Under the pieces are notes generated by a model. The model was given only the letters and a program-made list of their open reading frames with translations, did no database searches and had not been told where the DNA came from. 64,000 nt of DNA. It comes from Gracilariopsis chorda (taxonomy: Eukaryota; Rhodophyta; Florideophyceae; Gracilariales; Gracilariaceae). Shown in pieces: positions 1 through 63,888 of this stretch. The stretch lies in NCBI GenBank assembly GCA_003194525.1, contig NBIV01000050.1, positions 1 to 64,000 of the forward strand, written 5' to 3'. The position numbers were made by a program, and so were the translations under genes. Position 1 is the stretch's first letter; each line of letters starts with the position of its first letter.

Positions 1-1709
1 AAGTATACCAGACAGCTGGTCCATTTGAACCCTCGCCAAGAGGATATCGATTGCCCGTTGGAATGTAGCTGGGGCATTCGTTAGTCCAAACGGCATTCGC
101 TTAAAGCGATATAGTCCTTGATGGCACACAAACGCGGTCTTATCACGATCTTCTTCCTAATAGGGAACCTGCCAGTATCCCGAATGGCATCGCGAGGGTA
201 GTGAACACCGTTGCGGCTCCCCAGGAGTCAATGTACTCGTCCATTCGTGGAATCGGATAGACGTCCTTGACAGTAACCGCATTCAGGCGGCGGTAATCCA
301 CACAGAAACGCCATGATCCATCGGCTTTCGGAACAAGGACAACAGGAGAAGCTCCAAGGGGATTGTGCTGCTTCGATAACTCCAGCTCGCAGCATCTTCT
401 CCACCTGAGATTTCTCTTCCCCCCTTGCTTTAGGCCTGCCCGATACGGGTTGCTGTGCAATAGGCCGTGTATCCGGCAACAAATCAATCCGATGTTCGTT
501 ACCCCTATCGTCCCCAGGGAACCGTCCCACAATGGCGGTAAAGTCCCTGAGCATGTCACGAAACTTCTCACGATGAGATTCATTAATGTGTATCCAGTTC
601 CAACTTATCCAAAGCCTGTTCTGGGTCTAACGCAGTATCTGCCGATGCTGAAGTCGTGCTCTTCTGAGCTTCTTCGACAGTCGAATCTGAACTTTCCCGG
701 GCGGAATCCAACGGAACGAACGGGACCTCCTCCCCCTCCTTAGGGTCTTGTATTCCGAGAACGTCGGATATCGGAATCTTTGTAGGAAGGATAGCCAACG
801 GATGCGGAAGCATGTTGCCCAGGACCTGGTTTTTAACCAACCACTGAGTGGTAGTTCCGAGGTTAGCAACGAGAACCTTAAAGGTTTGTCCGGCTCGACG
901 GATACGATCCCATTTGCTAATGCGAGACGGCGCTGTTCGTAGAGCGAGGGGAGCGGTTGAACAACCTGCAACCCGTGGTGTTTGGATGTTACTGAGACCC
1001 ACACCTGAGATTCCTTCGGGATCGAAACTGGTTCCGCGACGCGAATCTTCGTAGATGCTCGATCCACATTGACGCTTCCTGAGCAGCAGGTTAAAGGTAC
1101 CCGTTTACGGGAGGCGTGTCGCAAGGGCTTCCGTACAATCGGGATGGTCGAACCGTTGGCCAATTCTACGGATCTGGAGCGAGGGCGGATAGCTTCCACG
1201 AAGCGGTCACAGAAATCACAACCGAGGATGACCGGTGCAGCAAGAGAATCGCATACGATGAAGTCCAACTTCACCACGTAGGTGCCTAGTCTGAGTACCA
1301 GAGGAATTGTTCCAAGAGTCTGGAGCGGGTTGTTATTAGCGTCCGCCAGATCCAGACTTGGACCAATGCGAATGCATTTCCGCATGGCGGGTGGAATAAT
1401 CCCGATATTGATCAGGTTCGGAGCGGCACCTGTATCCAGGACAGATAACTGACGAACCATGAACTGGTTAGAGAGACCGAGGTCACTATAAACTTTATAG
1501 TTCCTCTTGGCCATTACCAAAACTCGATCCGGGATGCGGAGGTTACGGGACCGTATCCACGGACGACGCAGAGCCACTAAGTGGTCCGAGCTCACGTCTT
1601 CTTGAGCCAGTTTCCTCGTAAGGATTTTGGCAGGGGAGCGAAGCGGTGGCGCCTCAGGCGTCTCCAACTTCGGCTTGGAAGACACCCCTCCCGTGGGGGA
1701 GACTCCCAA
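1..1709 (-). pseudogene. pol fragment of Gypsy element A (protease, start of RT)
   Basis: Pol part of element A. The aspartic protease region carries the VLDTGAAPN motif and is followed by a linker typical of this family. The reverse transcriptase N-terminal part (VDYRRLNAVTV, then IPRMDE) lies near 143-583. It is read in a different frame from gag; members of this family commonly join gag and pol by programmed frameshifting. The piece is broken and also cut by the window edge. The family call is firm; activity is unlikely. Confidence 0.8.
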
Positions 1710-1711
1710 GA

Positions 1712-3754
1712 TTAGTTTTTCGGGACCGAATCGACCGCTGGGTGCGGCTGAGCCCGTTCCGAAAGGTTAGGGTTGTTACCGTTCGCGGTTTTCGCGGCTT
1801 CTCGAGCTTGAGCATTGTGGACCGCAGCCTTTGCGTCTTCATACGAATTACTCGGGACACGAGCCTTATGCTCCGGTGGGAGATTCTCATAATTTCCCAC
1901 GATCTTCCACATCTCGCGAATGGGGAGGGTACACTGCGACGCAGTATGACCTTCAAGGTAACAAATGTAGCAAATCAGTGGGGCTGAACGTGTTCCGGTG
2001 GCGTGGGACATCATTCCGCGGTGCTGAGGGTGTTGTGGTTGGAATGCTAGTTGCTTCGGGTTGGACCATCCCGGGCGGGAGTGTCTTGTGGCGCTCGACG
2101 CGTAGGCTAGCGGGGCTGGGGGAACCCGACCGGGGTTTGCGTAAAAGGCCGGATCTACCACGGGTGGTGTAACCGTGGACGGCAGTTCCGAGGTTGCCAA
2201 CGACTGTTCAAGACTGCCAAGATACTGGATGTTATCCGCAAATCCGGAAGGTGGTCCCGGGTTAGGGAGAGATGCCGAGGAAGCCTCGTTCTCGACGAAG
2301 AGAGCCTTCGACGACCGACGTCTCGGGTCTCTCGCTCTGAGGGTGTCACCCTCAGCCTGCGCGTACTGGACCAGTTCCAGATACGTCGCCTTGCGCTTCT
2401 CTTCCCTGTAGCGGGACACCAGTGCCCTGATACCAGGATCTAAACCATCCACCAGCATGGAGCAACGCTCAAAAGCGGTAAACACATTTCCACAACGATG
2501 AAACGCTTTATTCAAGCGAGTTGAATACGACGTTTCCGTTTCACCAGGCTTCTGTTTCGTATCGCGAACCGCCACGATGGCTTGACTGATTGCAGTTCCC
2601 GTCGCGTACGACCTGAGCAGGTAGTGTACAGCCTCGGGCCAGCACGTAACACCTCCTTCTGAGGCCCTGGACGAACCCCTGACCGAGTTGTACTGATCTT
2701 CAGCCATTCCTGAAAGAAAGTAGGGCAACGCAACGTATGCCTGCGCCTCACTCATTTCGAGTACGTCTGCTTCCTGCACAAAGCGGGCCAGAAAATCCAA
2801 CACGAGGATCGGATCTTCACCGGAGAACTTCTGCTTAAGCATCGTCACATTCATACGACGTATGAGATCCTTCACCCGACCGGTGTCTCTCGAACTTCGA
2901 GTGCCCGAAGAGTCTTCCAATCGGTAATAACGATAGGACAACAGCTTCCTGTAAAGGGGATTCGTCGGTTTCAATTCCTTCAAGCCGAAATGACGGCGAC
3001 CTTTCTCCCGCGCACGGATTGCTCCATGGGAGGTGTAGGTAGCCCTCGAACTAGGTTCTTCTCCGCGACGGCGGCCTCTCCCTTCACGCGATGATCTCGA
3101 AGACGAGCTACTCGAACTTGTTTCCGAGTCAGAACTTGGCGAAACTTCATAACGATGAACTCTCTTTCCAGGGTGACGGGGGAGGTGACTGGAGCGGTGT
3201 TGGGTTGAGATGACCTTCACTTCCTCCTGTCTCGGAGCGTTCAGGTCTTCTCTGAGCAACGCTTCCAGCGTGTCCATACGTCCGGTTACCCGCATCATAT
3301 GGGTTTTAACTTCCTCCACGAACTCCCGATATCCTTCTACGAAGGCAGCCGGAGTACCCAGACACTCCAGAATGGAATTCACATCAGCTCTCAGGAGACG
3401 AATATCTCCCGAGTAATCCCGAGCCAGGGAGTCACTCCATCGCCGTTCCAACTCGGTAACTTGCTGCGAGAGGGAGGCGTGGGCCACATTGGCAATGTCG
3501 ATTCTCGACTCGAGGAGATGGTACTTAGGCGACCCGGGTCTCGGGGGGACAGCCGACGGCGTTTCGACCACCGGAGGTGGCGTAGTGGCCACAGCTGTCA
3601 CGGCTCGAGGCACCGAGGTTGCCGATGGGATTCCTTGGGATTCCAGACCGACGGCATTGGTAAGTAGTTGTTCCGGAACGGACCTTCGTGATCTTGCCGC
3701 TGCGGCGTTCCGTTGCGGACCATTCCTGGGGGAACTCGGAGCTGTGGGTAGCAT
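1712..3754 (-). CDS. gag polyprotein of Gypsy element A
   Basis: An open frame of 680 residues. The N-terminal 200 or so residues are low-complexity with a predicted helical stretch. A Ser/Arg-rich basic segment follows. The conserved capsid-like core contains GEDPILVLDFLARFV and GSSRASEGGVTCWPEAV. Near the C-terminus is one CCHC zinc knuckle, CYICYLEGHTASQC (CX2CX4HX4C), which in this family binds RNA. The core is nearly the same as in element B's gag at 7517-9691, including the identical stretch GSSRASEGGVTCWPEAV. About 680-720 residues is long for a Ty3-type gag. It is a relic part of the mobile element, not a host gene. Confidence 0.85.
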   Translation of the reverse strand: MLPTAPSSPRNGPQRNAAAARSRRSVPEQLLTNAVGLESQGIPSATSVPRAVTAVATTPPPVVETPSAVPPRPGSPKYHLLESRIDIANVAHASLSQQVTELERRWSDSLARDYSGDIRLLRADVNSILECLGTPAAFVEGYREFVEEVKTHMMRVTGRMDTLEALLREDLNAPRQEEVKVISTQHRSSHLPRHPGKRVHRYEVSPSSDSETSSSSSSSRSSREGRGRRRGEEPSSRATYTSHGAIRAREKGRRHFGLKELKPTNPLYRKLLSYRYYRLEDSSGTRSSRDTGRVKDLIRRMNVTMLKQKFSGEDPILVLDFLARFVQEADVLEMSEAQAYVALPYFLSGMAEDQYNSVRGSSRASEGGVTCWPEAVHYLLRSYATGTAISQAIVAVRDTKQKPGETETSYSTRLNKAFHRCGNVFTAFERCSMLVDGLDPGIRALVSRYREEKRKATYLELVQYAQAEGDTLRARDPRRRSSKALFVENEASSASLPNPGPPSGFADNIQYLGSLEQSLATSELPSTVTPPVVDPAFYANPGRVPPAPLAYASSATRHSRPGWSNPKQLAFQPQHPQHRGMMSHATGTRSAPLICYICYLEGHTASQCTLPIREMWKIVGNYENLPPEHKARVPSNSYEDAKAAVHNAQAREAAKTANGNNPNLSERAQPHPAVDSVPKN

Positions 3755-3883
3755 ACTGCAGATAGCCGTCCACGGCTTACTTCACCAGTCCCACGGCTTG
3801 GGAATCTCAACGAAGGAGCAAAAAGGGATAAAAGGGAAAAGGGGAAACGGACTTCCGACAGGCCGGCTTGAAAGCCAAACCCG

Positions 3884-3901
3884 TTCTAGGTCGGGAGACC
3901 A
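3884..3901 (-). other. primer-binding site of Gypsy element A
   Basis: Eighteen bases (plus strand TTCTAGGTCGGGAGACCA) end in CCA two bases before the LTR. The same 18 bases occur in element B at 9776-9793. On the plus strand they read like the 3' end of a tRNA including CCA, as expected of a primer-binding site in a minus-strand element. I cannot name the tRNA. Confidence 0.7.
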
Positions 3902-3903
3902 CT

Positions 3904-4812
3904 TGTGGTGCAATCCCGGTGTGGGAAAGGCACCCAAGGCAGCTCGAAGCCTTGCTCTCTTGGAGAGGTAGGCCCAGCTGGGTAGAGCCCTCCGTGTCCC
4001 GTATGACGGGTGTAACTCCGTCGGGAGCCTGGATGTACCTCGGAGGTTTAGGGGTTAGAACGGGTCGGAACCACGGCTGGTCCGGAAGTAGCCTGCGAAC
4101 AGTGGAACAAAAGGGGGAAAGGGACCACCGACGGGGCGTGCGGAAAGCGGGAACAGACCCCGGAGGGGGGTGCCGTCACACACACACGAACACGCACCGC
4201 GCGGCGGTTAGGGGATATGAAGGGAAGGGATGGTCTCACGGTCTCACGACACACGTCGGTAATATCAATACCCAAAACTGGGCGGAGATAGGGCCTGTAC
4301 GGGCGGTCACACGACAACAACGAATACCACGAGTGGTCACAACCCACTGGGTACGACGAGCACGGTCTCCTCGGTGGTGCGAGTCGGGTGAAACTATCGG
4401 CAAGCGGTGTACCTCCGCGAGGAGTTAGACACTTCGCATGGCGAATAGAGTCAGAGCCGAACTCTTGTTACTTTTCTTGGTGAGCTCGCCGCCGTGCGGC
4501 CGACGCTCAAGTACTAGCTCAGTGCAGTACAGTAGGTAGTGCACTAGCCTAAGTAAAATTAACCCCTAAACTATACTAAAATAAGTAGCCATTTTGGGCC
4601 TCCTGGCCGGGGCTGTAGCCACGTGTCCACCACCCTTGCCAGGCAAGTACCACAAAGTATGAATGTTCCCATAACCACCCTGGGTAACCCGACCGCTAAT
4701 TAGCCCGGTAAACGGGGGCTAAAATTCATGCATCCCGCTTCATCGCTCGCACCGAGTACACCTCAGATATGAGTTTCACCATCGCCCGTACGCGGGAATG
4801 CATTGCACTACA
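3904..4812 (-). repeat. 5' LTR of Gypsy element A
   Basis: About 909 bp between the primer-binding site and the junction with element B. On the plus strand it starts TGTGGTGCAATCCC and ends GCATTGCACTACA, so it has canonical TG...CA ends and an imperfect inverted repeat of about 12 bp at its termini. Its overall plan matches the element B LTR but the sequence is clearly diverged. The partner LTR is outside the window, so no age can be read from it. Confidence 0.75.
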
Positions 4813-7499
4813 GTAACGGGTTCTCAGATTCATCTCGCAATGCGAGTAGCTCGTCAAAATCAGCATCCTCGTCCCAGTTTTCTGGCCCAGCCTCGACGGC
4901 ACATTCCGGATCATCCGGGTCTATAGACATGAAACATGGGACTTCATCATCCTCCGTTGGGAGTGCTTCCCCACTTGTGGGTAACCGCGACAGAGCGTCG
5001 GCTTGGGTGTTCTGCGCGCCCTTTTTATAAATGACTTGAAAGTCATATTCCACGAGGCGGAGTCTCCAGCGCATGAGGCGTCCCGACGGGTCGGAGATAT
5101 TCATCAACCACCTCAATGAGGAATGATCCGTGTACACGGTGAAGTGAATTCCCATAAGGTAGGGGCGCAGAGTGGTCATCGCCCATACGACGGCGAGGCA
5201 CTCTTTCTCCGATACGGAGTAGTTCCGCTCATGAACATTGAGCGAGCGCGACCAATAACCAATTGGATGTCGTTCCCCATCGGGGGTGGTTTGAAAAAGA
5301 GCACACCCGACTTGGTAGTCGCTCGAGTCCGTATCTACGGAGTATGGCAACCCAAGTTTTGGGAGATGTAGGATTGGTGCTGATGTGACAGCCTCCTTCA
5401 AGGAGTTGAAGGCTTCCGATTGCTCGGGCGTAAATGTTCCCAGTTTTGGGGGGTTCCCTTTCGCAACAACGCGTTCAGGGGCGCCGCAGTATCCGAAAAG
5501 TTCGGGATAAACCGTCGATAGACGTTGACCAGCCCCAGAAAGGAGCGCAGTTCCGTTTGAGTACGGGCTCTTTCGCCTCGACGAGGGATTTGACTCGAGC
5601 TTTCTCGATCGCTAACCGTCCAGGACGGATAATGTGACCCAGATACTTCACAGTATCTGTGAAAAACTCGCATTTCCTCAACTTGAGGGTAATTCCCGCA
5701 TCGCGGAGTACGGTCAGCACGTCTCGGACGTGAGTGAGATGGTCGTCCAACGAGTTGGAGAAGATGATAATATCATCAAGGTAGACCAGACAACTCCGCC
5801 ACTTAAAGCGGTTGAGTAGAATATCTACTGCACGCTGAAAGGTGGCAGGGGCTTTGGTTAACCCAAATGGCATCCGCTTGAAGTGGTACGTTCCTGCGTG
5901 GCAGGTGAATGCGGTTTTGTCGCGATCCTCTTGTCTGACAGGTACTTGCCAGTATCCCCAATTGGCATCGAGGGCCGTGAACACGGTGGCGTCTCCAATG
6001 GAGTCAATACACTCGTCCATACGAGGGATAGGGTACGTGTCCCTAACAGTCACGGCATTGAGCCGGCGGTAGTCGACACAGAACCTCCAGGTTCCGTCGG
6101 GCTTCAAAGCCAGTACCACTGGGGATGCCCAGGGTGATTGAGCGGGCTCAATCACACCTGCGCGGAGCATCTTGTCCACTTGGGACTGCTCCTCTTCCCG
6201 AGCTTTCGGACCTGCCCTGTAAGGGGGTTGTGCAACCAGTCGCGCACCGGGGATTAAATCGATCCGGTGTTCCGTTGCGTTAATCTCGCCAAGCGAGCCA
6301 TCCCACATTGTTGTGAATTCCCGTAACATGGTACGGAGTTTGTCGCGGTGCTACTCTGGCACGTGGCTGAAGTCCAGCGCTTCAAGTGCTTTTTCCGGAT
6401 CAATCCTGTCGTTGCTCGATGGAGCATTGTCCTGTGGAACAGGTGTGGTTCGCAATTCCGAGTTACTCGGTATGTTCGACGCTGAAGTAGCAGTTTCCTC
6501 CCCTCCCTAGTCTTGACGTCTTCGGACGGCGGGGCGAACTCCTCAGAAAGAGGTGGTAACTCCGAGTAAATCGGCGGCTGTCATCTTCGTTGGCAGCATT
6601 CCCATAGGATGGGGGGTTACACTCCCAATTACTTGGTGTTTTACCAGATACTGGGGGTGTTTGCCAAGGTTGGCAACCAATATCCGGAAAGGAACATCCG
6701 GGGAAATGGAGACAATTCCATTAGCCAGCGCCAGCTGGGATTTCTCGTACAACGAGGCGAGGGGTTGTATAACCCGAAGACCGTGTTGACGGGAATTTAC
6801 CTGCACCCAGACTTGGGACTCAGCCGGTATAGAAACCGAGGCAGCGACGCGGAGCTTGGTGGACTCGCGGGACGCGGGCGGTGGTTCCTGCGCAGCAGGG
6901 AGCGGAACGTGTTTCCGAGAGGACCGCTTTAGCGGGCGGCGAACAATCGGAACCGACGATCCGTCGTGAAGTTCTACACGCCTGAGGCGGGGCCTGATTG
7001 CGTCGACAAATCTGTCGCAGTAATCACATCCCAGTATGACTGGTGCTGCCAATGAACGGCAAACGATGAAGTCCAACTTCACCACAGAGGTACCAAGTCT
7101 CACGACGAGGTCCACTGTGCCCACCGTTTGTAACGGATTGTTGTTCGCATCCGAAATGTCGGGGACCGCGTCAGAGCGGATACGCTACCGCACAAGCGGG
7201 GGTAACAATGATTCCACAACAAAGTTGGGGCCTGCACCTGTATCCAGGACGGTGAGAAACCTCACCATAAACTGGGGATCAACGCCAAGGTCGGCATAGA
7301 CCTCATAATTGCGTTTGGCCAAGACCAAGACTCTACCGGGAATCCGGGGATTTTTACTACGTATCCACGGGCGACGCAACACACCGAGATGCGCAGAGTC
7401 CGCGTCAGCGGTGTCTTTCCTCGAGAGGACTTTCACCGGGGAGCGAGGCGAGGACGCCTCGGGCGCCAACAGCCTCGTTCTTGAGGACGCCTCTCCCAA
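4813..7499 (-). pseudogene. pol of Gypsy element B (protease, RT, RNase H)
   Basis: Protease near 7185-7499 has the VLDTGAGPN motif. Reverse transcriptase at about 5475-6329 shows the family motifs VDYRRLNAVTV, FTALDANWGYWQ, MPFGL and LVYLDDIII, which include the catalytic YLDD. RNase H at about 4813-5401 shows SVDTDSSDYQVG and YTDHSSLRWL, ending in the usual ADALSRLP. The coding stretch stops exactly at the LTR of element A. It is broken in about three or four places. Reverse transcriptase motifs make the Ty3/Gypsy assignment firm. Confidence 0.85.
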
Positions 7500-7516
7500 A
7501 TGGGAGACTCCCTCAG

Positions 7517-9691
7517 TTAGTTTTCCGCCTTCGGCGGTGGGTTGGTTTCCTCGACAACGAGTGCTTCATCCCGTTGATGGGGGTTTCTATCCGCATAAGC
7601 GGAGGTTGCAACGGATGGTTGCGTGCTCTCCCGAATCGGGGTGTATGAAGCTTGCTGCGCACGCGGGGTCTGTGGTAGGGCATGGGAAAAGTCCGTTTTA
7701 GCACGGAGGTAGGAAGCCGTCGGGACGGAACGTTTCTCCTCTGGAGTGAGGGCCTCATAATTTGCCTCTACCTTGGCCATATCCTTCAGTGAACAAATAC
7801 ACTGAGGTGAGGTATGGCCATGGGCATAGCACAGGTGGCAAATGAGAGCCAATACCGCGACACGCGGATTATTATTCCGAGTATGGGAGAAGCGAACCGC
7901 AGGGCGGGTGTCAGTCCATCCAGGCCGTTGATAACGGGATTGACGGCTTGAAAACGGGAGTCGTTGGGGTTGAACCCGACTGTTACCACCGTACAAAACG
8001 GGGTCTTCCGTTCGCGTATCACTGGTCATCTCCATCGTTGACGGTAAATCATTGGTGGGTATCGACACGCCATCCTCCTGCACTAAATGCACGGTATCAA
8101 ATCCCTGTCCAGGGTTCCCATCCGCGGTGAGCGGGAGTGAGGAAGCTTCGCTTTCTAGCAACAACGCCTTGGCGGATTTAGACCGATTGTTCGGAGTTCT
8201 TGCACGAAGTGCATCCCCTTCTGCTCGGGCGTGTGGGAACAGCTCGAGATAGGTGATCCTTCGCTTTTCCTCCCGATAACGGGTAACTAAACTCCGGATT
8301 GCCGGGTCAAGACCATCGATGAACATGGTACTGCGCTCCCCAGCGGGGTATACGTTACCACATCTGTGGAAAGCCTTGTTAAGGCGCACCGAGTAATCGG
8401 TCTCGGTCTCTCCAGCACGCTGGCGTGTATCTTGCAAAGCGAGGATAGCCTGCTGAATAGCGGTGTTTGTGGCGTAGGAGCGCAGTAGATACTGCACAGC
8501 CTCTGGCCAGCAAGTAACTCCTCCCTCGGAGGCACGAGAAGATCCTCTGACAGAGTTGTATTGGTCCTCCGCCATTCCCCGTAAGAAATACGGTAAAGCC
8601 AAATACGCTTGTCCCTCATTCATACCGAGGATATCGGCCTCCGCTACAAAGCGGGATAGGAAATCCAGTACTAGGACTGGGTCCTCTCCAGTAAAATACT
8701 GGTTGCGGAGCGAGAGCTGCATTCGCTTAATGCATTCTCGCACCTTTCCCGTACCACGGGGCATACGTCCAAGTGACGAGTCTTCGAGCCGGTAGTACCG
8801 GTATGATAAAAGCTTCCGGTAATCCGGGTTTGTCGGTTTCAATTCCCGAAGACCGGGGTGTCTTCTCCCCTTCTGGCGGGTTCGGACCACACCTTCAGTG
8901 GCCGATGACCGCTTCGAGCGGGAGGGGTAGCCCCACTTCTCGTCCTCCGAGTCGGAGTCCAAGGAGCTCGAGCTAACCGAATGGTTTCGGGATGAGTCCG
9001 ACGATGTCGAAGAATCGGAGTCCGAATATTTTCGGTGGTGTTTCCGTCGATGACGGCGTTTCTTCTTCCCAGCTAGCTGGTCGTTGTGCGATGCCTCGTT
9101 TACCGGATCATCCGGTAATGGTTTGTCCATGAAGACGAAGTGCTCCAGCGTCTCCAGGCGGGCACCAATCCAATCAAATCGGGCTTCAACTCCTTCGATG
9201 AAGGTGGCGGGTTGTCCCAAACTCTCCAACACGGAGTTGACGTCAGACCGTAAAATACGGAGTTCCTCGGCGACCTCCTTTACGGGGGTTGCCAAGACCA
9301 CCTCTTGGAGGGATTTTAGTTCCCCTACAAGGGTGTCATGGGCGGTCCACAGAGCGCGGACCTGGGATTCCAGGGAAGTCCCCTGGGGGGTGTTATCGCC
9401 CGTTCCACGGGGGTTTGAAGCTGCGACAGCGGGAGCGGGCCGGGGTGCCTGGGGCACTGCGGCAACAGCCGGAGTCGATGCTGCATTCCCCTGCGGGGGT
9501 GATAATGAGGGCAAAAGGAGGTTCCGGGGTTCCCGGTCGGGGGTATCATTCCACGATGAGGCGGCGCCAGTATGGCTGGAACTTGTCCGTATAGGGATAC
9601 GGGGTACGAACCGAACTTCGGAAGTGTCCGCGTTGTCGCGGGAGCGACTACGCGTAACCACTGGCTCCGCATCGGAGGGATTTCTCGACAT
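7517..9691 (-). CDS. gag polyprotein of Gypsy element B
   Basis: An open frame of 724 residues beginning MSRNPSDAEP. A Ser/Asp/Lys-rich basic segment lies in the middle, followed by a capsid-like core (GEDPVLVLDFLSRFV, GSSRASEGGVTCWPEAV). One CCHC knuckle, CHLCYAHGHTSPQC, lies near the C-terminus. It is homologous to the element A gag along most of its length. Pol follows in another frame, consistent with the frameshift strategy known in the family. It is a retroelement part, with no evidence of host use. Confidence 0.85.
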   Translation of the reverse strand: MSRNPSDAEPVVTRSRSRDNADTSEVRFVPRIPIRTSSSHTGAASSWNDTPDREPRNLLLPSLSPPQGNAASTPAVAAVPQAPRPAPAVAASNPRGTGDNTPQGTSLESQVRALWTAHDTLVGELKSLQEVVLATPVKEVAEELRILRSDVNSVLESLGQPATFIEGVEARFDWIGARLETLEHFVFMDKPLPDDPVNEASHNDQLAGKKKRRHRRKHHRKYSDSDSSTSSDSSRNHSVSSSSLDSDSEDEKWGYPSRSKRSSATEGVVRTRQKGRRHPGLRELKPTNPDYRKLLSYRYYRLEDSSLGRMPRGTGKVRECIKRMQLSLRNQYFTGEDPVLVLDFLSRFVAEADILGMNEGQAYLALPYFLRGMAEDQYNSVRGSSRASEGGVTCWPEAVQYLLRSYATNTAIQQAILALQDTRQRAGETETDYSVRLNKAFHRCGNVYPAGERSTMFIDGLDPAIRSLVTRYREEKRRITYLELFPHARAEGDALRARTPNNRSKSAKALLLESEASSLPLTADGNPGQGFDTVHLVQEDGVSIPTNDLPSTMEMTSDTRTEDPVLYGGNSRVQPQRLPFSSRQSRYQRPGWTDTRPAVRFSHTRNNNPRVAVLALICHLCYAHGHTSPQCICSLKDMAKVEANYEALTPEEKRSVPTASYLRAKTDFSHALPQTPRAQQASYTPIRESTQPSVATSAYADRNPHQRDEALVVEETNPPPKAEN

Positions 9692-42076: not shown

Positions 42077-42244
42077 TGTGATGCTAGTCGCATAACCCGT
42101 CTCCCGGGTTCCTTTACGAGTTCGGGTGTGTCGTATATCTACCTACGGTCGGCCGCCGGTGGCCAGCATGGTGGACAACTGTCAGAGTTGTCGCATCTAC
42201 CCTGTGCGCGCCCCGTCTCTTCTAAAATTGTCAGAGTTGTCACA
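42077..42244 (-). repeat. Copia LTR, left copy
   Basis: 168 bp, TGTGATGCTAG at the plus-strand left end and GTTGTCACA at the right. It matches the right copy almost perfectly over about 119 bp but has about 49 bp extra between two GTCAGAGTTGTC repeats. A purine-rich tract (minus strand CGGGAGGAGTG) adjoins it, as expected next to a 3' LTR. Confidence 0.8.
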
Positions 42245-43170
42245 CTCCTCCCGAGACGGGGTGGGCGTGAAAGGGTATGATGTTAAGGGAACGGCGGAGG
42301 AGGTTAAACGCTTGCCATTTAAGCGGTTTCGTCATAAGGTCTGCGAGTTGGTGCTTGGTAGGAATGTAGCGCAGTTTGATGTGGCCTTGACGGATGTGGT
42401 CATGAATATAGTGCTTGCGGAGATCAATATACTTTCGTCTTTTCGTAGGAGCTTGGTTGTTTGCGATACTAATCGCGGATGTGTTGTCGACGTGCAAGAC
42501 AATGTCAGGTGGGCTGTAACCAGTGATATCATGCAAAAGACGCCTGATCCACTGTACTTGTTGTGTTGTGTCAGTGGCTGCCACATACTCTGCTTCGCAG
42601 GTTGACAACGCCGTTATGCGTTGTTTGCGAGATTGCCAGAGAAAAGGTATCTTGTTATAGCAATGGATGGATCCAGACGTGGATTTGCAGTCAGTGGGGT
42701 CGCCAGCGTGGTCGGAGTCTGAAAATGCGTTGTAGAGATGGGCTAGGGCTGTCGTACAGAGTCGTTGGTTGCTGGAGGCCATGTTTATACCAAAATCGAT
42801 AGTCTGCTTAAGATATCGGAGCAGGCTTTTAAGTATGTGCCAGTGACGTTGTGAAGGGTTCGAAAGGGCCATGGCGAGTTTGTTGACGATAAAGAAAATG
42901 TCGGGTCGTGTGCAGTCTGCAATGTATCGTAGCTCGCCCACAATTGATTGATAGAGAAGTTGTGGTTTTGTGGCGGGTTGGTCGCGGGCAGTAGGTTTAT
43001 GCAGCTGGATCCCATCAGGGTATGGGCTTCTTTTGCCATTGCACGTGTCCAGACGGAGTCGTTTCAGTACATTCAGTATGGCGTGGGGCTGTGATAGATG
43101 GATGTCCCCGTTCTTATTCCGTGTGATTTTCCAGCCCAAGTAATTAGATGGGAAGCCTAGGCGTTTCACC
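42240..43170 (-). pseudogene. Copia reverse transcriptase C-terminal end and RNase H
   Basis: Copia-type motifs: LGWKITRNKNGDIHLSQ, YIADCTRPDIFF, ALSTCEAEYVAATDT, VLHVDNTSAISIANN, RKYIDLRKHYIHDHI, LADLMTKPL. These give the connection region and RNase H found at the end of Copia pol. Part of the rearranged element; its start lies at the inversion junction. Confidence 0.85.
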
Positions 43171-43179
43171 ACTTCAACC

Positions 43180-44190
43180 AAGACGCAACCCACCAAGAAC
43201 ATCAAGAAACCGACTACCGCAGCGGTATAGAAACAACGACACACATTCTACACCAGCACGACAAACAAAAGCGCGAAACACACCACACAATACGCAGCTC
43301 CATCGAAATATGTCCCAAGTACCCACAAACAACCCACAAGCAATCCAATCGTTAACTACTCCCAACACACCTGAATTCTTGTCACCACAGCAAACAATAC
43401 CCCTCCAAGAGCCTGTATTGCCTTCTGCTATTCCCAACATGCAAATAGAGGACCAAACTCACTCCAAACATTCCACTCAATATCTACCAAGACTTACGGA
43501 TGACGGCAGCAATGTCCACAAATGGAAAATTGCCATTGAAGATTTCGCCATCATGCACGACATGGAATATTTACTGGCCCCGGAACACAACATACCGTCC
43601 TCATCTGATCAATCTTATCCCAAATATCGGAAACACAGAGCCACATTACGCAATGCGCTCATGAACAGTCTTCCAGATGACTTCGATTTCCCAATGGATA
43701 TAGATTCTTCCACCGAACCCCATCAAATCATCACTGTCGTGCGCTCCCGATTTGAATGTACTACAACTGCAGACCACCAGCTTCTACGACAAGAAGCTGA
43801 AGCAACTACTTTGGACCCCAACACTACAATACAGGATTACGTCCGCAAGCACAGAACCATTAGAACGAAAATGATCTCTGCAAAATTCCCGAACGCCAGT
43901 CTCGAAGCCACTACACTTGATTACATGATCCGAGGCATTAGCGCCAACCCCCATTTTTAAACAATTGTTGACACCTGGTATGACTCTAACAGCGTTCCAT
44001 CGACCATAACTGAGTTCGAAAAGCGCCTTCGCACAGCTGAAGCCCGCTTACAGACCAAGTCAACAACTGCCACGCCACAAACCTCAACAGAGCCCCGCGA
44101 AACGCGCTTCCGTTATCCGAGGGGGCGTAGAGGTGGCCGTGGCCGAGGCGGACGTGGTCGAGGCCGTTTTTACCAGCCCCCCTGGGCCCA
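43180..44190 (+). pseudogene. Copia gag part, inverted relative to pol
   Basis: Plus-strand coding stretch with the Copia gag pattern KWKIAIEDFAIMHDMEYLL, then DLDPNT-like TLDPNTTIQDYVRKHRTIR, ending in an Arg/Gly-rich tail (RYPRGRRGGRGRGG). It is broken in about one place. No CCHC knuckle is seen. It lies between the pol part and the right LTR but in the opposite direction. Confidence 0.75.
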
Positions 44191-62381: not shown

Positions 62382-63888
62382 TTAACTTGATAAGCTTTTG
62401 TCTACAATCATTCTGGCTATCGAAAGCGAGGATGTAGCTGCTGGGCTTGGCGCATTTCTTGTATGTAACACACGTCCATCAGCAGCTGTTTCAAACACGA
62501 AGTCATCAACAAGCTCACCCTTTAATCCAAGTGCTTGCGCGCGGATACCACTGAATTGAGCCCCTCGTCTCTCAAAGTCCGACGACTTCAGTACTGGAAC
62601 ATATCGTTGCGCAGCTGTAGTCGCAGCAGAAAGGAATATGCTACGATAAAACTCAGCAGCTCCATATCGCCAGAACCTTCGTGCCAGATGCCAGAAACCA
62701 GGATACGATAACATATCCTTCATGTCGCGCAGTGAGAAGTCCAGGGGGCGATATCCTGCTCGAGAGAATGCTAGAACAGCATTCGGCCCTACGATTAACT
62801 CTCCAGACATTGTAGGGGTGAAGTGGACGCCGAGAAACGGCGTACCGGTACCGGAATCTGGTACGGGATATATGTTTCCTCTTATCCTTTTCACGATGTG
62901 TGGATTTGTGACTCGCAAGTACTCACCTCGGACAGGTAGAATCTGTGGAGCCCTCAGCCCATCGAGAAGCTGGGCTACACGATCTGACTGCAGTCCGGCA
63001 CAAGATATGACTCGCTCTGTGCTGAGAGTGCTCACTTTGTCACCAGTTTTGTAGTTTAGTGTTATTGTATCGTTACAATTCACACCAATGACGCGAGCGC
63101 TTGTAAGGATTTCGCCACCTAGATTTCGAATGTCTTGAGCGTAATGATCTGCTACCAATCCCCAGTCAACTACACCAGTGAGGGGAGAATGTATAGCTGC
63201 AATACCAGAACATTCAGGTTCTATGTCGCGAATGCCCCCAGCATCCACAAGTCGGATTTCAGGAACAGCGTTCTCCTGAGCATTGACAAAAATGCGATGC
63301 AACTCCGGCAGTTCTGAGTCATCTAGGGCTACAATAAGTTTTCCAACTCTTTTGTGAGGGATGTTGTTTTTCTCTAGATACTGGTACGTCTTGTGAAGTC
63401 CTTCTAAGCAGAGCTTTGCCTTAAGCGAATGCGGCGCATAGTAAATACCAGCGTGTATGACGCCGGAGTTGCGACCTGTTTGGTGAGATCCCAGTTTGCT
63501 CTCTGCCTCAAGAACTGTAACACCTTTGACATTACGCAAGAGAAGTTCTCGAGCCGTCGCGAGACCTAGAATTCCACCTCCAATCACAGCTACATTGGTT
63601 GCGGGCGGCATAATCGGGTGGATATTGACGGGCACCCTTGGAAGCGAAAGGGCGTCGATCACATTTCCAGCATCATGCGATGATACTCTGTATGTTGCTG
63701 CGGTTCTGTCTGTCCACTCGCCTGGGCCGATGTCGCCCTGTCCTTAAAAAAGGTTACGAGATATGGTTTGGCGCAGTAGACTACGGAGCGCTGTCGTACT
63801 GTGTACCAACGGTACCTAGTAGGTACACAGTACGACAGCGCTCCGTAGTCTACTACCTACCTGTACGAGCGGACGGCACAGAAGCCAT
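62382..63888 (-). CDS. L2HGDH: L-2-hydroxyglutarate dehydrogenase, FAD-dependent (two-exon model)
   Basis: Oxidises L-2-hydroxyglutarate to 2-oxoglutarate, a metabolite-repair step usually in mitochondria. The FAD fold shows VAVIGGGILGLATA, then HQTGRNSGVIHAGIYY, and later GVVDWGLVADHYAQ; these are hallmarks of the family. The main exon alone could start at ATG 63611, but then the protein begins only nine residues before the glycine motif. The frame stays open upstream without ATG. A short exon at 63861-63888 (MASVPSART) ends in a GTAGGT donor, and joining it to the acceptor before 63742 (CCTTTTTTAAG) restores the frame exactly. The result is 462 residues, close to human L2HGDH (463), with an N-terminal extension that could be a presequence. 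The enzyme call is firm; the first exon is inferred. Confidence 0.8.
63743..63860 (-). other. Candidate 118-nt intron of L2HGDH containing a long hairpin
   Basis: Minus strand: donor GTAGGT, then a perfect 33-bp inverted repeat with 14-nt loop, then 32 nt ending in a CGTAAC-like branch site and CCTTTTTTAAG. The splice joins phase 1 to phase 1 and keeps the reading frame. Confidence 0.55.
63775..63854. repeat. Perfect 33-bp inverted repeat (long hairpin)
   Basis: Left arm 63775-63807 and right arm 63822-63854 are exact reverse complements. The 14-nt loop contains the palindrome GGTACC. Probably intronic to L2HGDH. Resembles a tiny palindromic transposon or introner-like insertion. Confidence 0.9.

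Follow-up and report, generated by a model that had tools for sequence, protein, structure and literature searches.

The candidate first intron of the L-2-hydroxyglutarate oxidase/dehydrogenase gene (L2HGDH) of the red alga Gracilariopsis chorda consists largely of a perfect hairpin with 33-nt arms. We favour, with modest confidence, the view that this structure is a single-copy inverted duplication generated by local DNA fold-back, either recent or kept perfect by later copying, which most likely arose inside a pre-existing spliceosomal intron. The window analysed, i.e. the whole 64-kb stretch to which all positions below refer unless a contig or locus is named, belongs to contig 50 of an assembly comprising 91.3 Mb in 1081 contigs. 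The features relevant to this interpretation are as follows.

62382 to 63742, minus strand: second L2HGDH exon under the spliced model (read without splicing, the open reading frame starts at ATG 63611 and encodes 409 amino acids).
63743 to 63860, minus strand: candidate first intron of L2HGDH, 118 nt, GT...AAG, proposed from donor and acceptor scores.
63743 to 63774, minus strand: intron tail outside the perfect stem, 32 nt, with a weak branch-like GTAAC, a T6 tract and the AAG acceptor.
63775 to 63807, no strand assigned: 33-nt hairpin arm on the exon 2 side, the reverse complement, without mismatch, of the arm at 63822-63854.
63808 to 63821, no strand assigned: hairpin loop, 14 nt.
63822 to 63854, no strand assigned: hairpin arm nearest exon 1, 33 nt, beginning 6 nt past the intron start.
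63861 to 63888, minus strand: candidate exon 1 of L2HGDH, 28 nt, ATG GCT TCT GTG CCG TCC GCT CGT ACA G, proposed from its sequence and in frame with exon 2.

The first-pass annotation had described a perfect 33-bp stem with a 14-nt loop, starting six nucleotides after the donor, and this geometry proved exact when the coordinates were re-derived: the hairpin (63775-63854) is present in the assembly as read and its arms are exact reverse complements. Read on the minus strand, the intron passes from GTAGGT (6 nt) through the first arm, the loop and the second arm into the 32-nt tail, which ends TTTTTTAAG. Perfect arms of this length are far above chance. The second-longest perfect inverted repeat of the window is 14 bp long (loop of 3-100 nt), the longest in five Markov shuffles of the window did not exceed 12 bp, and random sequence of 91 Mb would be expected to contain about 1e-10 perfect stems of 33 bp. 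The predicted folding energy of the intron RNA together with one flanking exon base is -76.3 kcal/mol (z of -13.5; none of 200 shuffles was equally stable), which corresponds to -0.62 kcal/mol per nucleotide, as against -0.26 to -0.03 in 18 other introns inferred from the same genome. None of the 33 base pairs is mismatched, which places the divergence between the arms below a bound of about 4.3% per site. The suggestion that such perfection implies youth or selection is therefore only weakly constrained: the bound is compatible with youth, with selection, and also with continuing homogenisation, since repeated template switching can keep a stem perfect.

Judged by its protein-family match, the gene downstream of the hairpin is an L-2-hydroxyglutarate oxidase/dehydrogenase: its product matches the NCBIfam L-2-hydroxyglutarate oxidase model NF008726 (E of 5.9e-128; 427 bits against a cut-off of 299), and its best PDB chain is 8w75_D. 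The divergently transcribed neighbour encodes an mRNA cap guanine-N7 methyltransferase (ATG at 64247). GC content is near 50%, resembling that reported for Gracilaria genomes (about 49-50%; PMC12502185), and the phycobilisome-linker domain has seven matches in the assembly, as would suit a red alga (in the control set it was found in 1 of 14 genomes, a cyanobacterium). Elsewhere in the window (627-9691 and 42240-43960), open reading frames resembling gag and pol pieces of LTR retrotransposons were recognised by eye.

It had been proposed that a 28-nt exon with an ATG, a GTAGGT donor and an AAG acceptor together restore a product of 462 residues. The joined exons (1389 nt) indeed encode 462 residues, with a frame that stays open up to a single terminal stop. 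In order to judge the splice sites, we assembled a reference set of 18 introns, inferred by eye from exon gaps and reading frames in Ras, chaperonin and mitochondrial-carrier genes of the same genome. Thirteen of the 17 loci fetched yielded introns (11 in Ras, 6 in carrier and 1 in chaperonin genes); the other four gave none on inspection by eye (L037, an in-frame insertion; L043 and L044, not clear; L046, a frame change). The inferred introns are 67-231 nt long and 16 of the 18 have GTAAGY or GTACGY donors. GTAGGT occurs in one, which also ends in AAG; this acceptor is a minority type, present in 2 of the 18, both within one gene. Scored with matrices built from these introns, the donor CAG|GTAGGT (9.1 bits) ranks second among 80 GT sites in 63501-64600 and the acceptor (5.3 bits) fourth among 69 AG sites, and both lie inside the leave-one-out ranges of the reference introns (2.0 to 11.1 bits for donors, -1.7 to 7.0 bits for acceptors). 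Over 608 kb of strand, the density of equally good donor-acceptor pairs with a spacing of 60-240 nt is 0.128 per kb.

The protein-coding potential of the sequence that splicing would add points in the same direction. No stop interrupts the 43 codons spanning 63740 to 63612. Of 283 coding windows (the score's own training set), 72% attain a codon score as high as theirs; the corresponding proportions are 3.7% for 1244 intergenic windows, 11% for the stop-free subset of 375 among these, and 21% for 374 stop-free wrong-frame coding windows. These proportions give moderate support to a coding extension.

The alternative is that there is no intron: L2HGDH would start at ATG 63611, transcription would begin downstream of the hairpin, and the latter would occupy part of the 635 bp that separate L2HGDH from the divergent cap methyltransferase gene. 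Several observations agree with this arrangement. The 409-amino-acid frame already includes the entire catalytic domain, which starts at its residue 6 or 7, and the N-terminal extension shows no abundance of basic residues (4 K/R and 5 D/E among the first 50 residues of the spliced product), a composition unlike that expected of a mitochondrial presequence. Moreover, 43 stop-free codons are not rare, being found in 30% of the 1244 intergenic windows. The branch motif CTRAC, found somewhere in 15 of the 18 inferred introns and missing in 3, is absent from this one, whose sole TRAY match is the GTAAC located 11 nt from the acceptor. The predicted fold (computed with 40 nt of flanking exon at either end) also occludes both splice sites: five of nine donor positions (-1, +1, +2, +5 and +6) are unpaired with a probability of at most 0.07, and the acceptor falls in a small CCUU/AAGG hairpin. 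Such predicted pairing would not favour splicing, though splicing factors compete with folds of this kind. Against the absence of an intron stand the ranks of the donor and acceptor among the surrounding sites, the scarcity of equally good site pairs, and the codon score of the extension, which lies inside the coding range. We regard an unspliced gene as possible but doubtful; even then, the hairpin would still be a fold-back duplication. The intron annotated at first pass thus gains from splice-site scores within the genome's own range and from the co-occurrence of GTAGGT and AAG in one inferred intron, while the missing CTRAC, the paired splice sites and a catalytic domain that needs no extension weaken it. 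On the sequence data, 63743-63860 is a likely candidate intron.

An introner or a MITE that became an intron was the origin first suggested for this structure. We ran the search for further arm copies that had been called for, using 32 of the 33 nt across the whole genome, and found no second copy at up to three mismatches apart from the partner arm (counts of this kind may be lower bounds). The 146-nt interval covering the intron and exon 1, and its 1.1-kb surroundings, match only themselves in the assembly, in which no haplotig or paralogue without the hairpin was found, and the arm has no exact match in a viral contig collection. No exact direct repeat of at least 2 nt flanks the arms at offsets of 0-4. 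ACAGG (5 nt) is present at both intron ends, but end repeats of at least 5 nt also occur in 4 of the 18 inferred introns, and its interpretation as a target duplication was rejected on this ground; use of the second ACAGG copy as acceptor would put L2HGDH out of frame. The search was able to see repeat families, because one of the same kind revealed a dispersed hairpin repeat, represented by L020:5886-5953 (C30:105886-105953), with arms TCTTGCCATGATGGCAGGGC separated by about 20 nt. In this family the arm has 52 forward and 43 reverse matches at up to two mismatches (95 in all), and the repeat looks like a very short MITE-like family.

These results largely refute, on copy number, the insertion of a palindromic mobile element that then became or entered an intron; the missing flanking repeat adds to this. 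Some features would nevertheless suit such an element: the 33-bp perfect arms could be its terminal inverted repeats, a target duplication of TA would escape notice (TA being its own reverse complement), and the genome does carry a dispersed 60-nt hairpin family. Nor is the lack of a visible duplication decisive, as one was seen in just 49 of 130 assessable introner families in the survey of PMC9860276. Taken together, we consider this origin very unlikely, and an introner or MITE was rejected as a candidate.

We also examined how common such hairpins are in this genome. The survey covered 304 kb, i.e. the window and 24 of 25 ten-kb stretches (L005, which overlaps the window, was left out). 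When mismatches were allowed, three stems reached a score of at least 20: the one described here, a 26-bp stem in L011 and a copy of the dispersed repeat. In one shuffled set no stem reached this score. Shorter perfect stems, of 15-20 bp, are more frequent: those of at least 15 bp (loop up to 100 nt) numbered nine in 250 kb, the L2HGDH stem included, and copy number was checked for three of the other eight. One of these is a second single-copy perfect hairpin (26 bp with a 3-nt loop; L011:5484-5538, C1:205484-205538); the 19-bp stem of L023 occurs at two places on contig C80, and the 20-bp stem of L020 belongs to the dispersed family. The single stem of at least 25 bp found in one copy outside the window, in 240 kb, corresponds to a genome-wide estimate of roughly 380 (interval of about 10 to 2100). 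Some 650 bp away from the 26-bp hairpin lies a perfect inverted repeat whose 76-bp arms are separated by 216 nt (L011:4471-4838, C1:204471-204838). On contig C80, the regions near 58-60 kb and 183-186 kb carry the L023 hairpin and a related arm in mirror-image spacing, which suggests a large inverted duplication. In eukaryotes, the density of inverted repeats has been reported to be higher in introns than in exons (PMC13155455), in an analysis of spacers of up to 8 nt, a range outside which the L2HGDH hairpin falls.

The lengths involved help to choose between ways of forming the hairpin. Without the whole hairpin the intron would measure 38 nt, below all 18 inferred introns, and without one arm it would measure 85 nt, which is mid-range among them. 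A reverse duplication is therefore favoured over an 80-nt hairpin having been inserted into an intron already present, although this argument does not exclude the creation of the whole intron by insertion. In addition, a reverse-complement copy lies next to its single-copy source, as is characteristic of an inverted duplication.

We propose that an ordinary ancestral intron of about 85 nt, containing one arm, would have been present at the 5' end of L2HGDH. A DNA 3' end may then have folded back near the inverted pair GTACC/GGTAC at the stem's inner end (a pair that today's stem includes and that is inseparable from the copied arm), copied the neighbouring sequence, and either resumed or been joined outside, by way of a replication template switch or of fold-back synthesis at a break. 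The resulting hairpin would be a tolerated passenger, because its perfect stem reaches neither the donor hexamer nor the 32-nt acceptor tail; this step is uncertain given the predicted extra pairing of the splice signals. Events of the required kind are described elsewhere. Fold-back inverted duplications at yeast breaks, as reported in PMC11724301, measure mostly about 5-34 bp, and their priming relies on inverted microhomology (spacers of 41 or 18 nt); template switches in great apes range up to 128 nt (PMC7954356), and template switching is described as able to make perfect hairpins in one step (PMC8794818).

The fold-back origin has its caveats. A 33-bp stem is long beside the yeast events, the majority of which are below 14 bp according to the same report (PMC11724301), and beside the great-ape median of 12 nt. 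The ancestral state is deduced from one genome, and either arm may be the original. A steady neutral process should, furthermore, leave decayed single-copy stems, and none of this size was seen in the 304 kb, where the sole imperfect stem above the threshold belongs to the repeat family (an observation based on few cases).

An assembly artefact, i.e. a fold-back chimera or a consensus error, is another conceivable source of the hairpin, and we consider it very improbable. The assembly may hold errors, as a chaperonin (TCP-1) gene (L046, contig C16:152080-152320) changes frame, by eye, at a G run, which represents either an assembly indel or a broken gene. However, the arms are embedded in unique sequence with plausible splice signals on either side, and palindromes left by missed adapters are usually far longer than a 33-bp stem.

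The hairpin had alternatively been credited with bringing the splice sites together. Yeast zipper stems, as characterised in PMC12350175, likewise lie between the donor and the branch region, and require a minimum distance of 10 nt to the donor and of 20 nt to the branch point, together with a total linker of 42-85 nt. The full L2HGDH stem differs in leaving 6 nt to the donor, 20 nt to the putative branch A and 26 nt of linker in all, and so misses the yeast rule. Its inner part of about 25 bp would comply if about 8 bp were opened, and the yeast rule may not be a red-algal one. The proposed role is thus doubtful, though compatible with the inner part of the stem: we see no positive reason to call the stem a splicing aid, and the predicted pairing of donor and acceptor would hinder splicing.

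Another reading is that the hairpin functions as RNA, with Dicer cutting the spliced intron as a precursor of siRNA or of a tailed mirtron-like kind. In favour of it are the 33-bp perfect duplex RNA, lengthened by a few predicted pairs, and the possibility of dicing, because Argonaute-type and Dicer-like genes exist: there are two strong Argonaute-type genes with a Piwi domain (contigs C77 and C163) and two Dicer-like open frames, each with two RNase III domains (C249:51720-52955 and C12:559599-560498; 1754 and 1762 amino acids). Chondrus crispus is reported to have a Dicer-like and an Argonaute gene, and mirtrons appear in the legend of a proposed red-algal pathway (PMC12026948). Separate from the two strong genes, contigs C483, C648, C777 and C944 carry degenerate matches to the Piwi domain. 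Many of these contain stops, and they recur on both strands at intervals of about 8.0 kb, as tandem repeats on small contigs. Other evidence speaks against a functional RNA. A known RNA family was rejected, the window having no Rfam match at gathering thresholds; the hairpin, which starts 6 nt from the donor, has a 32-nt tail between its 3' end and the splice site; and a search over 32 nt at up to three mismatches showed no further complementary site in the genome. We judge the proposal distinctly improbable. We give the same low weight to its more specific version, in which a one-step template switch would have turned an ordinary intron into a tailed-mirtron-like precursor and thereby a very young Dicer-processed hairpin gene.

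If the fold-back origin is true, L2HGDH offers a clean natural case in which one mutation made most of an intron a perfect hairpin. It would also make two questions testable in red algae, namely the frequency of short inverted duplications and the tolerance of the spliceosome for RNA structure beside the donor.

No hairpin intron of a red-algal nuclear gene appeared among the matches listed in our literature search, which covered titles and the openings of abstracts; this does not prove absence from print. The main text of PMC9860276 contains none of the terms "red alga", "Chondrus" or "Gracilari". Among the systems that have been described, the introner elements of Amoebophrya (PMC7789003) resemble the L2HGDH intron in their internal inverted repeats and predicted hairpin, but they are reported to form families with repeats of 8-20 nt and border direct repeats of 3-5 nt, whereas here there is one copy, a 33-bp stem and unremarkable borders. 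The symmetrical sister (stw)introns of Hypoxylaceae (PMC8469720) are also largely self-complementary and free of tandem duplication; the arms shown there are imperfect (about 73% identical) and multi-copy, in contrast to the perfect and unique arms described here. Nonconventional euglenid introns (PMC4770533) share secondary structure near the intron ends, but their reported pairing of positions +4 to +6 with -8 to -6 is absent from the L2HGDH intron, which has canonical GT...AG borders. The closest parallel is provided by template-switch and fold-back duplications (PMC8794818, PMC7954356, PMC11724301). Compared with those in the cited accounts, the L2HGDH duplication is longer than typical and is located in a candidate red-algal intron; it shares with them a perfect adjacent reverse-complement copy, a short spacer, a single-copy state and a size within their range.
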